Part shown: piece by piece, positions 1 to 56,560 of the stretch
Layout of the letters: the number at the start of each line of letters is the position of its first letter
How positions within the stretch are numbered: position 1 is the stretch's first letter
Origin: Stenotrophomonas sp. SAU14A_NAIMI4_5
GTDB lineage: Bacteria > Pseudomonadota > Gammaproteobacteria > Xanthomonadales > Xanthomonadaceae
DNA: 64,000 nucleotides
Reading direction: 5' to 3'
Assembly: GCF_003086795.1 (NCBI RefSeq)
Contig: NZ_CP026003.1
Span: 160,445 to 224,444, forward strand
The notes under the pieces: generated by a model
The model's database searches: none
The model's input: the letters and a program-made list of their open reading frames with translations, nothing else
What the model was told of the DNA's origin: nothing
Position numbers and translations under genes: made by a program

Positions 1-549
1 TGTGGCCTGTGCGCTGGCGAGGGGCACGACATGCGCCTGCCACTGCACGCTGCGCGACAGCTGCAGGCGTGCGCCATCGAGGCCGGGCAGCGGGTCGGGC
101 ACATGCACGGTCAGCGCGGTGCCGGCGGGCAGCTGCGCGTCGAGTTCGCGCAGCAGGCTCGGTAGCGGTGCAGGTGTCGCGGGCGCGGGCTGCTCGACGG
201 ACGGGAAGCCGGGCGCCAGCCAATGCCGGTTGCCCTCTTCGCCGGTGCCGCGCAGTGCGCGGGCATCCAGCCCGGGCGCGACCACGGTCCACGCGCTGGG
301 CGGTGCTGCGCTGCCGGTCAGCGCCGGGCGTGCCAGCAGCAGCGCCAGTGCGGCCAGCAACAGCAGGCGCACCAGCAGCAGCGGCCAATCATCGAAGCGG
401 ATGCGCTGGCGCGGGCGGATCTGTGCGCGCAGCCAGCGCAATGCGGCGAAGTCCAGCGGCGTGTACGGATGGCGCCGCGCCAGGTGGATCAGCAGGGGCA
501 GCAGCCACGCGGCCAGTGCGGCCAGGCCCAGCGGGAACAGCAGGTTCAT
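1..549 (-). CDS. BatA-like N-terminal double-transmembrane protein (partial)
   Basis: The first 183 residues are visible; the frame stays open to base 1, so the C-terminus is missing. The protein opens with a hydrophobic segment (MNLLFPLGLAALAAWLLPLL), then a short basic loop and a second hydrophobic segment at about residues 56-75. This is the layout of the N-terminal double-transmembrane (BatA-type) domain often found beside MoxR and DUF58 proteins. The ATG overlaps the stop of the upstream DUF58 gene in an ATGA arrangement, which indicates translational coupling. By family knowledge such proteins usually carry a von Willebrand A or similar periplasmic domain further on; that part is outside the window, so the exact subtype is inferred. 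Confidence 0.8.
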   Translation of the reverse strand, partial: MNLLFPLGLAALAAWLLPLLIHLARRHPYTPLDFAALRWLRAQIRPRQRIRFDDWPLLLVRLLLLAALALLLARPALTGSAAPPSAWTVVAPGLDARALRGTGEEGNRHWLAPGFPSVEQPAPATPAPLPSLLRELDAQLPAGTALTVHVPDPLPGLDGARLQLSRSVQWQAHVVPLASAQAT

Positions 550-1442
550 GCGCCGCCCCCGCGGCCGAACAGCGCCTGCAGCGGCTGGTCCAGCGGCTGG
601 TCGAGCCATCCGGTGGCGCTGGCGATGCCGCTGGCCTGCAGGCGTGCCTGCAGCGCGCTGTGTGCGGCGGCGAAGCGCTGCAGGTAGTCGGCGCGGATCG
701 CGGCGCCATCGCCCAGCAGCTCCTCGCCGGTTTCCGGATCGCGGAAGCGATGGCCGGCATCGAAGGGGAAGTCGCGCTCGTCGGCGGTCAGCACCTGCAC
801 CAGCATCACCTCGCGACGTGCGCTGGCCAGGCGTTCCAGCAGCACGATGCCGGCTTCATCGAAGCCATCGCCGATGGCCAGCAGCAGATCGCCCGGACGC
901 ACGCGCTCCCACAGCGGGCGCAGGCGGTCGGCGGCTGGCCAGCCACCGCTCGCCTGCAGCGCATGCAGCTGCAGGTGCACACGGTCACGCTGGCGCGCGC
1001 CGTTGCCGGCCGGTACCAGCTGCAGGCCATCGCCGTTGATCGCCAGCAGGCCGAAACGATCGCCCTGCTGCAGGGCGAGCTCGACCAGGCAGGCGGCCAG
1101 CCCGCGCATGTGGTCCAGGCGCGTACGCTGCGGCGCGGTGCGGTCGGCCTGGCTGGCCGAGGCGGTGGCATCGAGCAGCAGCCATACGGTGATCGGGCTT
1201 TCGCGTTCGGATTCGCGCACGAAGAAGCGGTCCGAGCGCGCGTAGAGCTTCCAGTCGATCTGGCGCAGTTCGTCGCCGGGTTCGTAGGCGCGGTACTGGG
1301 CGAATTCCAGGCCGGCACCGCGGCTGCGGCTGGCGTGCTGGCCGATACCGCTGGCGCCACTGGCCAGGCGCGGCCGCAGGCGCAACGTGCGCAGGCGCGC
1401 ACGCAGTTCCGGTGGCAGGGTCAGCGGTGTACCGGTGCTCAC
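546..1442 (-). CDS. DUF58 domain protein
   Basis: A 298-residue protein starting at GTG. It carries the DUF58 signature: a basic segment, then 'GAGLEFAQYRAYEPGDELRQ', 'IDWKLYARSDRFFVRE' and a hydrophobic strand 'VWLLLDATASAS' that resembles the start of a von Willebrand A fold. DUF58 proteins nearly always sit next to a MoxR AAA+ ATPase, as here (7 bp downstream of its stop), and are thought to work with it in assembling or activating envelope proteins. No signal peptide or membrane segment is visible, so it should face the cytoplasm. Specific partners are unknown. Confidence 0.9.
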   Translation of the reverse strand: MSTGTPLTLPPELRARLRTLRLRPRLASGASGIGQHASRSRGAGLEFAQYRAYEPGDELRQIDWKLYARSDRFFVRESERESPITVWLLLDATASASQADRTAPQRTRLDHMRGLAACLVELALQQGDRFGLLAINGDGLQLVPAGNGARQRDRVHLQLHALQASGGWPAADRLRPLWERVRPGDLLLAIGDGFDEAGIVLLERLASARREVMLVQVLTADERDFPFDAGHRFRDPETGEELLGDGAAIRADYLQRFAAAHSALQARLQASGIASATGWLDQPLDQPLQALFGRGGGA

Positions 1443-1449
1443 GCCTGCT

Positions 1450-2433
<984 letters not shown>

Positions 2434-2446
2434 GGCGGTGGTCCGT

Positions 2447-3154
2447 TCAATTGTTCAACGCGTACATCACGATGTTGACGCCGAAGCGGGTGTTGTCTTC
2501 GGCCAGGAAGCGCTTGTTGCGCCAGTCGTAGTCCCACTCGCAGCCGTAATCCTTGTTGCTGTAGAGCAGGCCCAGGCGGCCATCGACCTCGATGCCCTTC
2601 AGGTAGTCGTGCACCAGGTCATCGCCCCAGCCGTTGAGCTCGAAGCCGGTGGCGGGCGGGCCGTCGGGGAAGCGGAAGAAGCTGCGGTACAGCGCATGGC
2701 TGTTGGGCAGCTTCTGCAGGGCCTTGGGCCCGAACAGCCGACCCATCTGCGCCTCGAACGAGGTGGCGAACAGGCCGTCGATGTCATGGTTGCAGTCGTC
2801 GACGAAGACGAAGCCGCCGTTGCGCACGTAGCGCACGAAGTTCTGCCGCTCGGCGGCGTTGAACTCCACCAGCGTGTGCCCGGCCAGGTAGCAGAAAGGC
2901 GCTTCCAGCATGCGTGGGTCGGCCAGGGCCACCACGTGTTCCTGCGGGTCGACGCGCAGCGAGGTGTAGTCGATCAGCGAGGTGATCAGGTTGGACGGCA
3001 TGCGCGCGTCCACGTCCCAATCGCCGGAGTCGTACTGCAGCCGGGTGAACCAGAAGTCGTAACGCGAATTGCGCGGGCCTGCCTGCGCGAAGGCCGGCAG
3101 CGCCGCCGCCGAAGCGGCAGCGGCCAACCAGCGCAGGCAGGCCCGCCGATCCAT
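2447..3154 (-). CDS. DUF4159 protein with Tat-like signal
   Basis: A 235-residue protein. The N-terminus MDRRACLRWLAAAASAAALPAFAQA has an Arg pair, a hydrophobic stretch and an AxA cleavage site, so export, perhaps by Tat, is likely. The rest fits DUF4159: 'RYDFWFTRLQYDSGDWD', 'PSNLITSLIDYTSLRVDP', 'FCYLAGHTLVEFNAAE' and 'RNGGFVFVDDCNHDIDG'. In related genomes this domain is found with MoxR, DUF58 and BatA-type proteins, sometimes fused to the membrane component. Its ATG overlaps the stop of the TldE-like gene by one base (TGATG), so the two are coupled. Biochemical function is unknown. Confidence 0.85.
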   Translation of the reverse strand: MDRRACLRWLAAAASAAALPAFAQAGPRNSRYDFWFTRLQYDSGDWDVDARMPSNLITSLIDYTSLRVDPQEHVVALADPRMLEAPFCYLAGHTLVEFNAAERQNFVRYVRNGGFVFVDDCNHDIDGLFATSFEAQMGRLFGPKALQKLPNSHALYRSFFRFPDGPPATGFELNGWGDDLVHDYLKGIEVDGRLGLLYSNKDYGCEWDYDWRNKRFLAEDNTRFGVNIVMYALNN

Positions 3155-4488
3155 CAGACCGCGTCGGACAGCGAGGTGAAGGTGAAATCGCGCAGCTTCA
3201 TCGGCGGGATCATCATCACGTAGCTGGATTCATCACCAGCCACACGCACCGGCTTGCCCAGTTCTTCGATGTTGTTGAGCATGATCACCGGCGATTCGTT
3301 GAAGCGGAAGTTCTTCACCGGGTGCTTGATCTGGCCGTTCTCGATGTAGAAGGTGCCATCGCGGGTCAGGCCGGTCAGCAGCACGGTCTGCGGGTCGACC
3401 ATGCGGATGTACCAGGTGCGGGTGACCAGGATGCCCTTCTGGGTGCCGCGCACCAGATCGGCGGTGCTCTTGTCGCCACCGCTCATCAGCAGGTTGCCCG
3501 GCGTGGCCTTGGCGGTCTTGCCCTGCTTCTGTGCCCAGAAGCGCGAGTAGTCCAGGTTGGCGACCTTGCCGTTCTCGATGATGGCCATGCGCTCGCGCGG
3601 CATGCCCTCGCCATCCCACGGCAGCACCGGTGCATCGGCATGCCACGGATCGGCGTACATGCTCACGCGCGGGTCGTAGACCTGCTCGCCCAGCTTGTTG
3701 CCGCCGCCCTTCTTCGACAGGAAGCTGCGGCCTTCATCGGCCGAGCGCGCGCTGAAGAAATTCATCATGAAGCTGATCAGGCCGGCGGCCGCAGCCGGTT
3801 CCAGGATGACCGTGTACTTGCCCGGTTCCAGCGCCTTGGCTTCCGAGGATTCGGTGGCCTTGCGCATGGCGATGCGGATGTCCTGGTCGGCCTTGAAGTC
3901 CGCCGCGTCCTTCAGGTTGCGGCCGACCCAGCCCGAACCGCGGCCGTCTTCGGTGCGCACGGTGCAGGTGTAATCGAAGCTGGTGCTGCGCTGGTAGCCG
4001 AAGTTGCCGTTGCTGTTGGCGGTGGCATAGAAGCCCTGGCCATCTTCCAGGAAGCCTGCGGCGATCAGGCCGTTGCCACGGCACGGCGCGATGGAATCGG
4101 CGGCGACCTTGGCGCGGAACGCCGGATCGATGGCAGCGGTGGATTCGCTGAAGGTGGGGCTGGCGCGGTAGGTCTGCTTGCCGATGGCCGGCATGAACTC
4201 CGGATTCTCCGGGGCCAGGCGGGCCAAGTCCTCGGCGCGGCGGACCACGCGTTCCAGCGCGGCATCGTCGAACTCGTTGATCGAGGCGGTGCCCACGCGC
4301 TTGCCGAACGCCACGGTGACGGCCAGTTCGGTGTTGTCCACGATGCCGCTGGTGGACACGTTGTTCAGGGCGAAACGGATGTTGCCGTTGATCGAACCAG
4401 CCAGCACGGCGGTGCACTCATCGGCCTTGGACAGGGCGATGACCTTGTCGAGGATGGCCTTGGCCTGGGCTTCGGTGAAGATACTCAT
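3154..4488 (-). CDS. TldE/PmbA-type metallopeptidase homologue
   Basis: A 444-residue member of the TldD/PmbA (U62) family, on the TldE/PmbA side because the HExxxH zinc motif is absent. The C-terminal region has the family pattern 'GDKSTADLVRGTQKGILVTR', 'MVDPQTVLLTGLTRDG' and 'NGQIKHPVKNFRFNESP'. In E. coli, TldE pairs with TldD to form the active protease that trims microcin B17 and degrades CcdA. A good ribosome site (AGGAG about 9 bases before ATG) supports the start. There is no signal peptide, although both adjacent TldD-like partners have Tat signals; it could stay cytoplasmic or be carried out as a Tat hitchhiker. Overlaps the DUF4159 gene by 1 bp. Confidence 0.9.
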   Translation of the reverse strand: MSIFTEAQAKAILDKVIALSKADECTAVLAGSINGNIRFALNNVSTSGIVDNTELAVTVAFGKRVGTASINEFDDAALERVVRRAEDLARLAPENPEFMPAIGKQTYRASPTFSESTAAIDPAFRAKVAADSIAPCRGNGLIAAGFLEDGQGFYATANSNGNFGYQRSTSFDYTCTVRTEDGRGSGWVGRNLKDAADFKADQDIRIAMRKATESSEAKALEPGKYTVILEPAAAAGLISFMMNFFSARSADEGRSFLSKKGGGNKLGEQVYDPRVSMYADPWHADAPVLPWDGEGMPRERMAIIENGKVANLDYSRFWAQKQGKTAKATPGNLLMSGGDKSTADLVRGTQKGILVTRTWYIRMVDPQTVLLTGLTRDGTFYIENGQIKHPVKNFRFNESPVIMLNNIEELGKPVRVAGDESSYVMMIPPMKLRDFTFTSLSDAV

Positions 4489-4509
4489 GGTGTAAGGGCT
4501 CCTGACCGG

Positions 4510-6144
4510 TCAGCCGAGGCTGCGTGCGGTGTTGATGACGTTGATGCCGTTGAAGCGCGCGGTGGACGAACCGTGCGAGACCGCCGAGACCTGGCCCGGC
4601 TGGCCCTTGCCGTCGAAGAACGAACCGCCCAGGCGGTAGTCGCGCTCGTCGGCCACGGCGGTGCAGGCGTTCCAGAACTCCGGCGTGCGGATCTGGTAGG
4701 CCACGTCTTCCAGCATGCGGGTGATCTTGCCGTTCTTGATCTCGTAGAACAGCTGGCCACCGAACTGCGCGTTGTAGCGCTGCTGGTCGATGGAGAACGA
4801 GCCGTCGCCGATGATGTAGATGCCGTTCTCGACGTCCTTGATCATGTCCGGGACGCTGAGCGGGGTCTTGCCCGGCGCCATCGACACGTTGGCCATGCGC
4901 TGGAACTGCACGCTGGACCAGGAATCGGCGTAGCAGCAGCCATCGGACTCGGTCTTGCCGAGGATGTGGGCCTGGTCGCGGATGGTCTGGTAGTCGACCA
5001 GCTTGCCGTTGCTGATCAGGTCCCAGCGCTTGCACTTCACGCCTTCATCGTCGTACGCCACGGCGCCGAGGCTGCCCGGCTGGGTCTTGTCGGCAAAGAT
5101 GTTGACGTGCTCGCTGCCGTACTGGAAATGCTGCTCGCGCTTGTCCAGGGTGGCGAAGCTGGTGCCGGCGTAGTTGGCTTCGTAGCCGAGCACGCGGTCG
5201 AGTTCGAGCGGGTGGCCGATCGACTCGTGGATGGTCAGCCAGGTATGCGACGGATCGAGGATCAGGTCGTACTTGCCGGGCTTCACCGACGGTGCCTTCA
5301 GCTTCTCCTGCGCCTGCTTGGCCGCAGCGATGGCGTCTTCCTTCATGTCGTAGGAGGAGCCGTAGTTCACCACGCCATTGGGGGTGAGCACCTTGCCGGC
5401 GGCGGCGCCATCCAGGTACTCGTAGCCCAGGCCCATCGGCGCGGACAGGCCTTCGCGGGTGCGGAACTTGCCGCTGGCCTTGTCGATGGCGGTGATCGTC
5501 ATCGGTGCCCAGATGCGGTGCACGTCCTGATCGATGTAGGAACCATCGGTGGACGCGAAGTACTTCTGCTCGTTGACCAGGAACAGCATCGAATTGACGA
5601 AGCTGGCGCCGGCGCCCAGCGCGGCCGCGTTGACGTCCAGCAGCAGGTCGACCTTTTCCTTGATCGGCACGTCCATGGCGTTCTTGCGGATCGGCGTGCG
5701 CCAGCTCACTTCACCCACGCCCGGTGCCTTGGCCAGCTGCACCGGTGCGGTCTGCACGCCGGCGTTGGCCTTGGCGATGGCGGCGGCCTGCTGCGCGGCA
5801 CGGGCCACGTCGGCGGTGCCCAGCGCATTGGTGGCGGCGAAGCCCCAGGCGCCGTTGACTATCACGCGGATGCCGACGCCGGTCGACTCCGTGTTCACCA
5901 CGTTCTGCACCTTGTCTTCGCGGGTGATCACGAACTGCCGCAGGTAGCGGCCGATGCGCACATCGCAGTAGGTGGCGCCGGCGCTGCGGGCGGCCTGCAG
6001 CGCGGCATCGGCCAGGCGCTTCTTCAGCCCCAGGTCGAGGCTGGACTGCAGCTGCTCGGCGGCGATCGCCTTGCCGAAGAACGACGGCACGATCAGGCCG
6101 CCCGCGGTAAGCCCGGTCAGGGCGAGGAAGTCACGTCTCTGCAA
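4510..6144 (-). CDS. TldD-type zinc metallopeptidase, Tat signal (copy B)
   Basis: A 544-residue TldD-family protein. It starts at TTG, chosen because it gives MQRRDFLALTGLTAGGLIVP, a good twin-arginine signal, and follows GGAGAG by 6 bases. The zinc motif HESIGH has H306, E307 and H311; a cysteine in 'FWNACTAVAD' near residue 490 is the likely third ligand, as TldD uses His-His-Cys. The C-terminus has the family motif 'VSAVSHGSSTARFNGINVIN'. E. coli TldD (about 480 residues) has no signal, so this is an exported subtype. The upstream gene is a close paralogue and the downstream gene is the TldE-like partner, 21 bp away. The substrate is unknown. Confidence 0.92.
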   Translation of the reverse strand: MQRRDFLALTGLTAGGLIVPSFFGKAIAAEQLQSSLDLGLKKRLADAALQAARSAGATYCDVRIGRYLRQFVITREDKVQNVVNTESTGVGIRVIVNGAWGFAATNALGTADVARAAQQAAAIAKANAGVQTAPVQLAKAPGVGEVSWRTPIRKNAMDVPIKEKVDLLLDVNAAALGAGASFVNSMLFLVNEQKYFASTDGSYIDQDVHRIWAPMTITAIDKASGKFRTREGLSAPMGLGYEYLDGAAAGKVLTPNGVVNYGSSYDMKEDAIAAAKQAQEKLKAPSVKPGKYDLILDPSHTWLTIHESIGHPLELDRVLGYEANYAGTSFATLDKREQHFQYGSEHVNIFADKTQPGSLGAVAYDDEGVKCKRWDLISNGKLVDYQTIRDQAHILGKTESDGCCYADSWSSVQFQRMANVSMAPGKTPLSVPDMIKDVENGIYIIGDGSFSIDQQRYNAQFGGQLFYEIKNGKITRMLEDVAYQIRTPEFWNACTAVADERDYRLGGSFFDGKGQPGQVSAVSHGSSTARFNGINVINTARSLG

Positions 6145-6175
6145 GGCAGCTCTCCACGTCGAAGGATGGGACGAC

Positions 6176-7807
6176 TCAGGCGCCGAGACTGCGCGCGGTG
6201 TTGATGATGTTGATGCCGTTGAAGCGGGTGGTGGACGACCCGTGCGAGACCGCCGATACCTGCGCGGGCTGGCCCTTGCCGTCGAAGAAGGAACCGCCGA
6301 GGCGGAAGTCGCGCTGGTCGCAGATCGCGGTGCAGGCGTTCCAGAACTCCGGCGTGCGGATCTGATAGGCCGCGTCCTCGACCATGCCGGCGATCCTGCC
6401 GTCCTTGATCTGGTAGTACAGCTGGCCGCCGAACTGCGCGTTGTAGCGCTGCTGGTCGATGGAATAGGAGCCGCGGCCGTGGATCCAGATGCCGTTCTCG
6501 ACGTCCTTGATCATGTCGTCCACGCTCAGCGGCGCCTTGCCCGGCGCCAGCGAGACATTGGCCATGCGCTGGAACTGCACGCTGGACCAGGAATCGGCAT
6601 AGCTGCAGCCATGCGAGGCCTCGCGGCCCAGAATGTGGGCTTCGTCGCGGGTGGCCTGGTAGTCGACCAGCACGCCATCGCGCACCAGGTCCCAGCGCTG
6701 GGTCTTCACCCCTTCATCGTCATAGCCGACCGCACCGAGGCTGCCCGGCTGGGTCTTGTCGGCGAAGAAGGTGACGAGGTCGCTGCCCCAGCGGAACCCG
6801 GCATCGCGCTTGTCCAGGGTGGCGAAGCTGGTGCCGGCGTAGTTGGCCTCGTAGCCCAGCACGCGGTCCAGTTCCAGCGGGTGGCCGACGTTCTCGTGGA
6901 TGGTCAGGAACAGGTTGGACGGGTCCAGCACCAGGTCGTACTTGCCGGGCTTCACCGAGGGCGCCTTCAGCTTCTCGCGTGCATGGCGGGCGGCGGCGAT
7001 GGCGTCCTCGACCGGGTCGTAGGAATCGCGGTACGCGGTGATGCCGCCGGGCAGCTGCACCTTGCCGCGCGCATCGCCATCTAGGAATTCATAGCCCATG
7101 CCCATCGGCGAGGACAGCCCGGCACGGGTGCGGAACTTGCCGCTGGCCTTGTCGATGGCGGTGGCGGTGAACGGCAGCCAGATGCGGTGGATGTCCTGGT
7201 CGATGAAGGAGCCATCGCTGGAGGCGAAGTACTTCTGTTCGTTGACCAGGAACAGCGTGGAATTGATGAAGTCCGCGCCAGCATCGAGCGCGGCGCCGTT
7301 GAGCGCCAGCAGCAGTTCGATCTTGTCCTGGATCGGCACTTCCATGGCGTTCTTCCGCACGGGGGTCTGCCAGCGCACCTCACCCACTGCGGGTGTGGGT
7401 GCCAGCTGCACCGGACGGGTCTGGATGCTGGCGTTGGCACGGGCGATGGCCGTGGCCTGCTCGACCGCGCCGCGCACGGCGGCCTCGGTCTGCTGGTGGG
7501 TGGCAGCGAAGCCCCAGGCACCGTTGACCAGGACCCGCACGCCCACGCCGGACGACTCGCGGTTGGTCACGTTGCCGACCTGGTGTTCGCGGGTGATGAC
7601 CGACTGGTTGAGGTAGCGGCCGATGCGCACGTCGCAGTAGCTGGCCTTGGCCGCACGCGCGGCGGCGAGGGCGACCTCGGCCAGGCGCCGGCGCTGGGCG
7701 GTATCCACCGGCGCGAGCAGCTGCTCGGCCGCGATCAGCCGCGAATGCGGCAGCACCAGGCCGGCAAGGCCCAGACCGGAATACGCCAGGAACTCACGTC
7801 GTTGCAC
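6176..7807 (-). CDS. TldD-type zinc metallopeptidase, Tat signal (copy A)
   Basis: A 543-residue paralogue of the next gene and first gene of the operon. I place the start at GTG 7807, giving MQRREFLAYSGLGLAGLVLP, a Tat signal aligned with that of copy B; a longer GTG start at 7831 is open but adds a Lys/Glu/Arg stretch before the signal. The zinc motif is HENVGH (H304, E305, H309), and 'FWNACTAICD' supplies the probable cysteine ligand. The two copies are close over their full length, so this is a tandem duplication with both active sites kept. A (GA)7 tract at 7812-7825 lies just upstream of the chosen start and may serve as the ribosome site. Confidence 0.9.
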   Translation of the reverse strand: MQRREFLAYSGLGLAGLVLPHSRLIAAEQLLAPVDTAQRRRLAEVALAAARAAKASYCDVRIGRYLNQSVITREHQVGNVTNRESSGVGVRVLVNGAWGFAATHQQTEAAVRGAVEQATAIARANASIQTRPVQLAPTPAVGEVRWQTPVRKNAMEVPIQDKIELLLALNGAALDAGADFINSTLFLVNEQKYFASSDGSFIDQDIHRIWLPFTATAIDKASGKFRTRAGLSSPMGMGYEFLDGDARGKVQLPGGITAYRDSYDPVEDAIAAARHAREKLKAPSVKPGKYDLVLDPSNLFLTIHENVGHPLELDRVLGYEANYAGTSFATLDKRDAGFRWGSDLVTFFADKTQPGSLGAVGYDDEGVKTQRWDLVRDGVLVDYQATRDEAHILGREASHGCSYADSWSSVQFQRMANVSLAPGKAPLSVDDMIKDVENGIWIHGRGSYSIDQQRYNAQFGGQLYYQIKDGRIAGMVEDAAYQIRTPEFWNACTAICDQRDFRLGGSFFDGKGQPAQVSAVSHGSSTTRFNGINIINTARSLGA

Positions 7808-7937
7808 AGCGTCTCTCTCTCTCTCTTTCACACCTGTGCGGAGGGCAAAGGACCACTCCGATCACTTGAACTGTCCGACTTTCGCCAGCGCGGGGCGATC
7901 GGGCAAGTGACTGCAGTCATGGTAGGGGAGGGTTTCG

Positions 7938-7956
7938 GCAGGGCTTGCAGCCCTGC
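7938..7956. repeat. GC-rich hairpin GCAGGGCTTGCAGCCCTGC
   Basis: A perfect 8-bp stem with a 3-base loop. The same 19-mer, or its reverse complement, recurs at 8762-8780 and 15012-15030, each time next to one of the foldback elements and followed by a GCAACGGCAACGG-like run. It is therefore part of a larger composite repeat and not a lone terminator. Confidence 0.8.
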
Positions 7957-8022
7957 ACCTGTTCAATGCAACGGCAACGGCCGAAGCAACAGCAACAGCG
8001 GCATTCCGTGGGCGGCGGGGCG

Positions 8023-8108
8023 GTGTGGGTGGGCAGGACACGCCGTAAACCCGTCCCTAGGGGCTCGTAGGCGCCATCCATGGCGCCAACGGTCCTGCCC
8101 ACCCACAC
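8023..8108. repeat. Foldback element A (86 bp)
   Basis: A perfect 17-bp terminal inverted repeat (8023-8039 and 8092-8108) encloses a core with the 13-bp box ACGCCGTAAACCC (8040-8052) directly inside the left arm. The core also has a small hairpin around GGCGCCATCCATGGCGCC. The flank just right of the element carries GACAGATTCCG (8121-8131). The box and flank motif recur in elements B, C and D, while the arms differ in sequence between copies. No coding potential is evident. Confidence 0.85.
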
Positions 8109-8141
8109 CCCCCCACCCACGACAGATTCCGTGTGCTGTTG

Positions 8142-8435
8142 GTGGGTGCCGACCGTTGGTCGGCACATCTGTCGGGTATCGAATGAATTCATCCACGCAT
8201 GGCGTGGCTCCACTGGGACGCGCGGCTGTTGGTAGGTGCCGACCGTTGGTCGGCACATCTGTCGGATATCGAATGAATTCATCCACGCATGGCGTGGATC
8301 TACCGGGACGCGCGGCTGTTGGTGGGTGCCGACCGTTGGTCGGCACATCTGTCGGATATCGAATGAATTCATCCACGCATGGCGTGGATCTACCGGGACA
8401 CGCGGCCGTTGGTAGGTGTCGACCTTGGTCGACAC
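8142..8435. repeat. Tandem array of four 90-bp units, each with a SMAG palindrome
   Basis: Units begin at 8142, 8232, 8322 and 8412, exactly 90 bp apart. Each starts with a SMAG/REP palindrome (GTGGGTGCCGACCGTTGGTCGGCAC, with GTAGG in some copies). The first three continue with an ATGAATTCAT palindrome and an ATCCACGC-ATG-GCGTGGAT hairpin. The fourth copy is degenerate (GTGTCGACCTTGGTCGACAC) and shortened. Because 90 is divisible by 3, the minus strand reads as an open frame of 30-residue repeats; I regard that as a by-product. Confidence 0.9.
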
Positions 8436-8460
8436 ATCTGTCAGATATCGAAATTCATCT

Positions 8461-8499
8461 GGGGTCAGAGCCCGTTGCGAAGCAACGGGATCCGACCCC
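8461..8499. repeat. GGGGTC-type inverted repeat, copy 1
   Basis: A 39-bp palindromic element with outer arms GGGGTCAGAGCCC and GGGATCCGACCCC and an inner GTTGCGAAGCAAC stem. Related elements lie at 37265-37303 and 39922-39961 with the same outer arms but different inner stems. It has no T-run, so it is more a dispersed repeat than a classic terminator. Confidence 0.75.
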
Positions 8500-8539
8500 T
8501 TGCCTTTCCGACAGGTCGCGGAAAACTGTCGAAGGCGGT

Positions 8540-8708
8540 GTGGGTCCGGTTGAGGGGGTGTGAGCCGCATGGGCCCGAGGCATGCCTCGGGCGGGTTGGG
8601 CAGGACGCCCAACCCCGGTCTTGCCGTGTGCGCAGGACAGCGCACACGAGCAAGCGGCGACCAAGCCCCCATGGATGGGTTTACGGCGTCCCCCTCAACC
8701 GGACCCAC
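8540..8708. repeat. Foldback element B (169 bp)
   Basis: A perfect 19-bp terminal inverted repeat (8540-8558 and 8690-8708, GTGGGTCCGGTTGAGGGGG). The 13-bp box, here as GGGTTTACGGCGT, abuts the right arm at 8677-8689, so the element is inverted relative to A. Three hairpins lie inside: GCCCGAGGCATGCCTCGGGC, GGTTGGGC/GCCCAACC and GTGTGCGC/GCGCACAC. The left flank has CGGAAAACTGTC (8519-8530); the right flank has the GCAGGGCTGCAAGCCCTGC hairpin (8762-8780). It shares much of its length with element C in opposite orientation. Confidence 0.85.
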
Positions 8709-8832
8709 CCCGCCAACCCTCAGGAAACCAGCTTTTGCCGTTGCCGTGGCTTGAAGCAGGTGCAGGGCTGCAAGCCCTGCCCAGAACCCCCCCCTCGTGC
8801 ACAATGGGCCGACCCCGCCTGGACGTTCCCCG

Positions 8833-9447
8833 ATGTCGAGCAAGCCGTATTCAGAAGCCTGCGAACGCAACCGCGAACCGATCGCGGCCGCGCTCGACCC
8901 ATGGATGGGCGACCGGCATCGGGTGCTGGAAATCGGCAGCGGCACCGGCCAGCACGCGTCCTTCTTCGCCGAGCGCTGGCCGTGGCTGCGCTGGCAGCCC
9001 AGCGATCACCCGGACCACCTGCCCGGCATCGAGACCTGGCGCGCCGAGGCGGCGCTGCTCAATCTGCTGCCGCCCGTGGCGCTGCAGGTGGAACTGCCAC
9101 CGGCACCGGGCCTGACCCTGCCCGAGGGCAGTTCCTTCGATGCGGCGTTCACTGCCAATACCCTGCACATCATGGGCTGGGAGCACGTGCAGGCGCTGTT
9201 CGCCGCGCTGCCGCCGCTGCTGCGCCACGGTGCGCTGCTGGCGGCCTACGGCCCGTTCAACTACGGCGGGCGCTACACCAGCGACAGCAACGCGCAGTTC
9301 GATGCCTGGCTGAAGGCGCGTGACCCGCGCAGCGGCATCCGCGATGTCGAAGCCGTGCAGGCGCTGGCCGAAGACAACGGCTTCACCCGCCTGCGCGACG
9401 TGGCGATGCCGGCCAACAACCGCCTTCTGCTGTGGCGGTTGGGCTGA
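8833..9447 (+). CDS. DUF938 family SAM-dependent methyltransferase-like protein
   Basis: A 204-residue protein beginning MSSKPYSEACERNREPIAA. The motif 'HRVLEIGSGTGQHASFFAE' is the glycine-rich SAM-binding loop; 'FTANTLHIMGWEHVQALF' and 'GPFNYGGRYTSDSN' are hallmarks of DUF938 proteins. Substrate unknown. It follows the repeat island and is convergent with the large ferredoxin oxidoreductase gene, separated by a SMAG dimer. The ATG at 8833 was chosen over an upstream ATG at 8797 because the family begins here and the extra residues come from repeat DNA. Confidence 0.88.
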   Translation: MSSKPYSEACERNREPIAAALDPWMGDRHRVLEIGSGTGQHASFFAERWPWLRWQPSDHPDHLPGIETWRAEAALLNLLPPVALQVELPPAPGLTLPEGSSFDAAFTANTLHIMGWEHVQALFAALPPLLRHGALLAAYGPFNYGGRYTSDSNAQFDAWLKARDPRSGIRDVEAVQALAEDNGFTRLRDVAMPANNRLLLWRLG

Positions 9448-56369: not shown

Positions 56370-56560
56370 TAGCCGCCACACAAAGGTGGCGGGCGGAGAC
56401 GTGGCTCGAAAACCGGTGACAGTGAACCGGCAGGCACAAGGCCTCCACGCTCCGCCCGCCATAGCCGGCAGACGGATTGCCAACCGGCGCCACACGGGGT
56501 GACGCCGGCTGGCAAGCGCAAACACTTCACTGTCAAAAGCTCCGGGTTTTCGAGGCCCGG
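56370..56560. repeat. Nested inverted-repeat element with competing pairings
   Basis: Outer stem: CTCGAAAACC (56405-56414) with GGTTTTCGAG (56545-56554), continued by TGACAGTGAA (about 56417-56426) with TTCACTGTCA (56525-56534). Inner hairpin: TTGCCAACCGGCG with CGCCGGCTGGCAA (about 56477-56516). In addition GGCGGGCGGAG (about 56389-56399) pairs with CTCCGCCCGCC (about 56450-56460); this pairing crosses the outer stem, so both cannot form together as simple hairpins. The region precedes the minus-strand gene at 55984-56343. It is not SMAG-like. Confidence 0.75.

Follow-up and report, generated by a model that had tools for sequence, protein, structure and literature searches.

A conserved proteobacterial operon with a candidate Tat-exported TldD/TldE peptidase beside MoxR-DUF58-BatA envelope genes

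Can a TldD/TldE peptidase operate in the periplasm? The question is raised by an operon at the start of a 64,000-nucleotide stretch of the genome of Stenotrophomonas sp. SAU14A_NAIMI4_5 (contig NZ_CP026003.1, positions 160,445 to 224,444; this whole stretch is referred to here as the window), in which minus-strand genes for two TldD homologs, TldD-A and TldD-B, are followed in transcription order by genes for a TldE-like partner, a DUF4159 protein, a MoxR ATPase, a DUF58 protein and a BatA-type protein, and, past the window edge, by genes for a DUF4175-like protein and a membrane protein, ORF602. A first-pass annotation of the window had proposed a possible exported TldD/TldE system. The results lead us to lean, by a modest measure, toward an envelope operon, that is, one encoding a TldD/TldE periplasmic peptidase exported by twin-arginine translocation (Tat) beside a complex assembled or driven by MoxR and DUF58.

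TldD-A (543 aa, GTG start; 6176..7807, minus strand) and TldD-B (544 aa, TTG start; 4510..6144, minus strand), identified by open-reading-frame (ORF), Pfam and motif searches, carry the metal-binding motifs HENVGH and HESIGH and begin with the segments VQRREFLAYSGLGLAGLVLP...LIAAEQ and LQRRDFLALTGLTAGGLIVP...AIAAEQ, respectively. The signal region of TldD-B comprises residues 1-30 (6055..6144, minus strand), with cleavage placed by eye at AIAA/EQ. We scored these segments by a rule modeled on TATFIND that asks for a twin-arginine motif, an uncharged hydrophobic stretch and a start codon in place, trying several starts for TldD and the first start only for 1941 other ORFs. Both proteins pass, which bears out the claim that the window encodes two TldD paralogs with intact HExxxH motifs and twin-arginine signals. 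A public-genome scan with a 12-sequence alignment as query, from which 80 of at least 585 confirmed loci were kept, yielded 122 operon TldD matches, 120 of them with RR at the start, copies in loci L077 and L079 being cut by the locus end; a start codon lies at most 12 residues before the RR motif in 118. The rule is satisfied by 120/120 assessable operon TldD vs. 31/1941 other ORFs, and is failed by 12 of 13 TldD homologs encoded outside such operons, a Parabacteroides protein being the exception. Among the other operon products it is passed by none of 71 MoxR, 66 DUF58 and 64 BatA proteins, and, at several starts, by 13/68 DUF4159 proteins. The source genome encodes TatC. We conclude that a genuine export signal on TldD is well supported, and that TldD is very probably exported in a Tat-dependent manner.

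The TldE-like partner (444 aa; 3154..4488, minus strand; ORF, Pfam, motif and signal checks) has neither signal nor HExxxH motif. None of 76 TldE proteins passes the Tat rule, and in 74/74 the start codon lies within 3 residues of position 1, with no signal-like extension; the absence of a signal from TldE, likewise claimed in the first-pass annotation, thus extends to the family.

The same 80 loci, with titles that include Stenotrophomonas, Xanthomonas, Lysobacter, Luteimonas, Sphingobium, Erythrobacter, Brevundimonas, Nevskia and others, indicate how far the operon is conserved. Linkage was counted by DNA length alone: 52 of the 80 loci have at least 8 kb past the last TldD gene, and 28 are too short. 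Genes for TldE, DUF4159, MoxR, DUF58, BatA and the DUF4175-like protein are present in 52/52 of the long-enough loci, which span Gamma- and Alphaproteobacteria, and an ORF602 homolog in 51/52; comparative genomics of the linkage, proposed earlier as a check, therefore finds it kept. TldE is present in 63/63 loci with at least 5.5 kb beyond the first TldD gene. Two TldD genes are present in 40/80 loci and one is seen in 40/80, some of these cut short; the TldD/TldE genes are duplicated as a pair in one locus (L030), and a TldD gene is placed between TldE and DUF4159 in 7 Lysobacter loci. An additional TldD copy lies near the locus end, on the minus strand, opposite in orientation to the operon and downstream of it, in the two Brevundimonas loci L077 and L079.

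Genome surveys, which like the locus set cover Pseudomonadota and overlap with it at least once (L081/G154), give the same picture. Among 121 genomes of the order, 29 encode TldD of the operon type and all 29 of these encode DUF4159, on the same contig and at most 4.1 kb apart, start to start, in 27/29 (in the other two, the genes lie on separate draft contigs); DUF4159 occurs in 2/92 genomes without operon-type TldD (Fisher p = 6e-26, shared ancestry ignored). Among 299 genomes of the phylum, 10 match TldD-B, and nine of these are of the operon type; the outlier, G187, has a 42%-identical homolog without signal, with only TldE recognized alongside. The nine are exactly the genomes with a short DUF4159 frame (229-299 aa); each of the remaining 63 among the 72 DUF4159 frames has at least 578 aa. 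At locus L032, a TldD/TldE pair with 42% identity to TldD-B lacks a signal and has the Cys ligand; MoxR, DUF58 and a long DUF4159 frame are encoded at another place in that genome.

Within the window, the gaps from TldD-A through TldD-B, TldE, DUF4159 and MoxR to DUF58 are 31, 21, -1, 13 and 7 bp, and inspection of the neighboring 11 kb (L006) shows that the operon continues about 4.5 kb past the window edge. The claim of a single operon thus stands as to close spacing, and is corrected as to extent, since the window edge cuts the operon in BatA. A consensus promoter scan of positions 1-9000 found none anywhere, and hence none at the 13-bp seam. We conclude that the TldD genes through the DUF4175-like gene are one real conserved operon. 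Just upstream, at 8135-8452, a 90-bp unit is tandemly repeated 3.5 times; it is based on a REP-like (repetitive extragenic palindromic) palindrome, the core of which occurs 10 times in the window vs. none expected.

Alignment with E. coli TldD indicates that the operon proteins have kept the catalytic apparatus, with one substitution. E. coli TldD has metal ligands H262, H267 and C454, catalyst E263, and supporting residues K456, E270, D272 and R362 (PMC5810440). The corresponding catalytic and clamp residues are conserved in operon TldD: in TldD-B numbering, H306, E307, H311, E314, D316, D511, G512 and K513 are invariant in 126/126, and R416 is kept in 118/118. The HExxxH motif of TldD-B (residues 306-311; 5212..5229, minus strand) was placed by motif search and alignment, and Asp511 (4612..4614, minus strand) aligns with Cys454, a zinc ligand in the E. 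coli protein. The third ligand position is Asp in 126/126 operon TldD vs. the zinc-ligand Cys in 13/13 outside homologs. Neither the window's TldE nor the proteins related to it contain HExxxH. We conclude that operon TldD is apparently catalytic.

The Asp marks a subfamily. Three PmbA/TldD domains (PF01523, PF19290, PF19289) score above gathering score in TldD-A, TldD-B and TldE, yet the NCBIfam equivalog models for E. coli TldD, PmbA and archaeal TldD stay below their cut-offs (129 vs. 635, 75 vs. 513 and 49 vs. 438 bits). In a 61-row tree, a branch with support 99/95 separates operon TldD from the rest; the program cautions that long branches come together in it. MoxR, DUF58 and DUF4159 were not recognized beside the 13 outside homologs in stretches of 4.2 to 18 kb. 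Replacement of Cys by Asp is known from some TldD sequences, Gemmatimonas being named (PMC5810440), and because the residue at the third ligand position is Asp, we place operon TldD, by alignment, tree and family models, as a distinct Asp subfamily of the Pfam PmbA/TldD family, relatives and not orthologs of E. coli TldD. TldD-B is 99% identical to a Stenotrophomonas cyclobalanopsidis TldD. That the TldD genes are the canonical housekeeping copy is ruled out by the separate branch and by an ordinary TldD/PmbA pair encoded elsewhere in the source genome. Two further cysteines set operon TldD apart: Cys494 is present in 125/126 and Cys498 in 107/126 operon TldD and neither in the 13 outside homologs, Cys403 being shared with 3/13. 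In TldE, C136 and C175 occur together in 75/80 (L029 and L031 lack both; three lack C136 only). These extra TldD and TldE cysteines could form disulfides.

The remaining genes of the operon are those of an envelope system. The DUF4159 protein (235 aa; 2447..3154, minus strand; Pfam, hydropathy) has an N-terminal Tat-like signal, and a hydrophobic N-terminal segment is found in 68/71 family members. The earlier claim of a Tat-like signal holds for the source genome, in which the motif is RR; in the family a single-arginine form (T-R-A-E-F-L-R-L type, 49/71) is commoner than RR or KR (20/71; other, 2/71). We term the signal Tat-like only, because most members have one arginine, and export of DUF4159 through Sec rather than Tat would be equally possible. 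MoxR (327 aa; 1450..2433, minus strand) is an AAA+ ATPase with Pfam AAA_3, and the DUF58 protein (298 aa; 546..1442, minus strand; Pfam) and the BatA-type membrane protein (Pfam; minus strand, partial in the window at 1..549; 372 aa in full, L006 9876-10994) follow it, so that AAA_3 ATPase, DUF58 and BatA genes stand together as in a MoxR-DUF58-BatA envelope operon. Beyond the window lie the DUF4175-like protein (721 aa; L006 7714-9879) and ORF602 (602 aa; L006 5909-7717). No Pfam family scores over cut-off in the 721-aa protein, but the ortholog of this protein in L028 matches DUF4175 with 35.6 bits. Hydropathy gives three segments in BatA and at least two each in the 721-aa and 602-aa proteins, and the large domains of all three are predicted, by charge bias and by eye, to be periplasmic. 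The DUF4175-like protein is rich in His and Asp, with at least 6 His per 40 residues in 37/60 orthologs, and has a GHxHD motif in 59/60, in the longer form GHTHDxxEA(A/T)TL in 42/60; as a pointer to metal handling, these features are only a lead.

DUF4159 proteins with long frames occur in a wider set of loci. Of 20 such contexts fetched, 19 have MoxR and DUF58 alongside and none has a TldD match, and a long form that was scanned (L154) consists of BatA fused to DUF4159; the window's protein is separate and unfused to BatA. Because long-frame loci carry MoxR and DUF58 without TldD, the TldD operon is, to judge from gene content, one version of a more widespread MoxR-DUF58-BatA system, a version in which DUF4159 is separate with its own signal and TldD/TldE are present. 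Divergent DUF4159 forms were also observed: G301 (divergent DUF4159) and G314, which look like exceptions to the linkage, have divergent or long DUF4159, MoxR and DUF58 with no TldD match in 19 kb; G311 has a divergent second copy in addition to the operon; G326 has a second DUF4159 match; and L166 and L167 (G301; second copy in G311) have divergent DUF4159 with MoxR, DUF58 and BatA and no TldD match.

According to the reading that we favor, TldD would fold and acquire metal in the cytoplasm, signal-less TldE would bind it to complete the shell, and the two would leave, folded and paired, through Tat on the TldD signal, with TldE as hitchhiker. Tat transports folded complexes, and in Tat hitchhiker complexes, such as the small and large subunits of hydrogenases, one Tat signal serves a tight signal-less partner; since Tat carries folded complexes, it is simplest to suppose that TldE goes out together with TldD. 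The likeness lies in the asymmetry of signals, known here from genes, and TldE would be a peptidase hitchhiker. In E. coli, TldD and TldE enclose a sealed shell whose only substrates are unfolded peptides entering through a pore; both subunits are required for activity, and the homodimer that TldD forms is unstable (PMC5810440). Because E. coli requires both subunits, TldD exported by itself would lack protection and would probably be inactive, save as a dimer with itself or its paralog. Hitchhiking of TldE we judge slightly the better bet.

By analogy with E. coli, the pair would, in the periplasm, trim unfolded peptides that fit its narrow pore. The first-pass annotation had suggested looking for a small peptide gene nearby, and none common across lineages was found in the operon flanks, in a search that excluded the operon interior: among the 16 largest clusters of flanking ORFs (at least 30 aa), three run antisense to ORF602 and a fourth is ORF602 itself, and none of the others is found in more than 14/80 loci. 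A dedicated peptide substrate is therefore unsupported. MoxR proteins are chaperone-like ATPases that mature dedicated complexes (PMC3893208). The peptidase would adjoin a complex of exported DUF4159 with BatA, the DUF4175-like protein and ORF602, which cytoplasmic MoxR and DUF58 would spend ATP assembling or remodeling; such action of MoxR-DUF58 on the envelope part is conceivable, if somewhat short of likely. A bolder extension, which we consider unlikely, is a trans-envelope machine in which ATP energy from MoxR-DUF58 would pass by way of BatA, the DUF4175-like protein and DUF4159 into the ATP-free periplasm and there power the processing of envelope peptides by the Asp-liganded TldD/TldE, the His/Asp stretch and GHxHD motif of the DUF4175-like protein holding or delivering metal.

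Several observations weigh against an exported TldD/TldE pair. The periplasmic location of TldD and its activity are predictions from sequence. The Tat rule also fires, at several starts, on 19/60 DUF4175-like and 11/58 ORF602-like proteins, and thus, because these and some DUF4159 proteins also pass, is not perfectly specific. The lack of a signal on TldE is equally compatible with a cytoplasmic TldE. The TldE cysteine total is usually odd (3 in 54/80), and because of this and of their absence from L029 and L031 the TldE cysteines are weak evidence. The structure model of TldD is poor (predicted local distance difference test score, pLDDT, 54), and the Asp site was judged by alignment. The idea that Cys-to-Asp is a requirement for export is refuted by the Parabacteroides TldD, which has a Tat-like signal and Cys; because that protein passes the Tat rule with Cys, the Asp is a subfamily marker and no proof of export.

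The alternative that survives best, which we regard as rather unlikely, is a division of the pair by the membrane, in which TldD would be exported as a homodimer (or TldD-A/TldD-B dimer) and TldE would stay inside as a homodimer or hold TldD until export. TldE that never bears a signal and the two TldD genes in half of the loci are consistent with such a division, as are the reports that a Sulfolobus TldD homodimer is active and that TldE proteins crystallize as homodimers (PMC5810440); however, a single TldD gene is seen in the other half (some of these being the truncated loci), E. coli needs both subunits, with an unstable TldD homodimer (PMC5810440), and TldE is present in every locus with room for it. 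The sequence data fit hitchhiking and division alike. A cytoplasmic TldD, in which the twin-arginine segment would be no export signal and TldD, perhaps membrane-tethered inside, would act with TldE, MoxR and DUF58, is in our view quite improbable: it is compatible with evidence of location that consists of sequence, and with the short hydrophobic part of the signal (in TldD-A, no stretch of 19 residues exceeds the threshold), but not readily with the uniform outcome of the Tat rule in operon TldD vs. its failure in all but one outside homolog, or with the predicted export or membrane location of other operon products. That two unrelated operons touch by chance, the MoxR half being merely adjoining, would accord with the long-frame DUF4159 loci that have MoxR and DUF58 and no TldD match, but is made highly improbable by linkage in 52/52 loci over two classes, the 13-bp seam with no consensus promoter (in a scan that found none at all in 1-9000), the 7 Lysobacter insertions and the genome-by-genome association of short DUF4159 with TldD.

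How does the operon compare with systems already described? E. coli TldD/TldE (PmbA; 5NJ5) likewise has three PmbA/TldD domains, HExxxH, conserved E/D/K/R clamp residues, and a catalytic TldD beside a motif-less TldE; the operon pair differs in the Tat signal on TldD, the Asp for Cys454 and the MoxR-DUF58-BatA-DUF4159 neighbors. A second TldD/TldE pair with the same asymmetry of signals is found in another phylum, in Parabacteroides distasonis (TldD WP_010183233.1 with TldE; L113 2197-5050), but that TldD has a lipobox-like cysteine after the signal and a Cys zinc ligand, and MoxR, DUF58 and DUF4159 gave no match in the 6.7 kb seen. The Rhizobium leguminosarum RL3499-RL3502 operon is a MoxR envelope operon. 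RL3499 plays an important part in the integrity of the membrane and in cell morphology (PMC3893208). In related genomes, MoxR and DUF58 precede a long DUF4159, with BatA fusion where scanned; the difference from the TldD operon lies in the absence of a TldD match from the 20 contexts and in a DUF4159 that is fused instead of separate with its own signal. In E. coli, TldD/TldE acts in microcin maturation and CcdA41 degradation (PMC5810440).

The operon itself is already in print. In S. maltophilia, NIPOLPBK_01784-01792, nine consecutive locus tags, is an uncharacterized operon with two TldD, a MoxR-like ATPase, a putative protease, a membrane protein and hypotheticals (PMC7688217), and S. maltophilia loci L034, L035 and L037 have all nine operon genes; the two are almost certainly the same operon. 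That study states that some genes of the operon are lower in biofilm in all isolates, a loose wording, because its Venn analysis gives only 5S rRNA as commonly downregulated (PMC7688217). The accessible part of that account has no analysis of export, partner or subfamily (PMC7688217). Literature searches, which were partly incomplete, found no report of an exported TldD, no match for DUF4159, and only an unrelated match for TldD with twin-arginine. At the far right end of the window, a C4 antisense RNA match (56382-56466, minus strand; 60 bits) suggests a phage P4-like element.

What would the operon mean for these families? To our knowledge, MoxR systems have few known clients, and the operon gives MoxR-DUF58-BatA a candidate client. 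It would also give TldD/TldE a new, testable compartment, as a periplasmic peptidase of a new kind. Tat hitchhiker complexes form a short list, to which, if TldE does ride out with TldD, a peptidase would be added.

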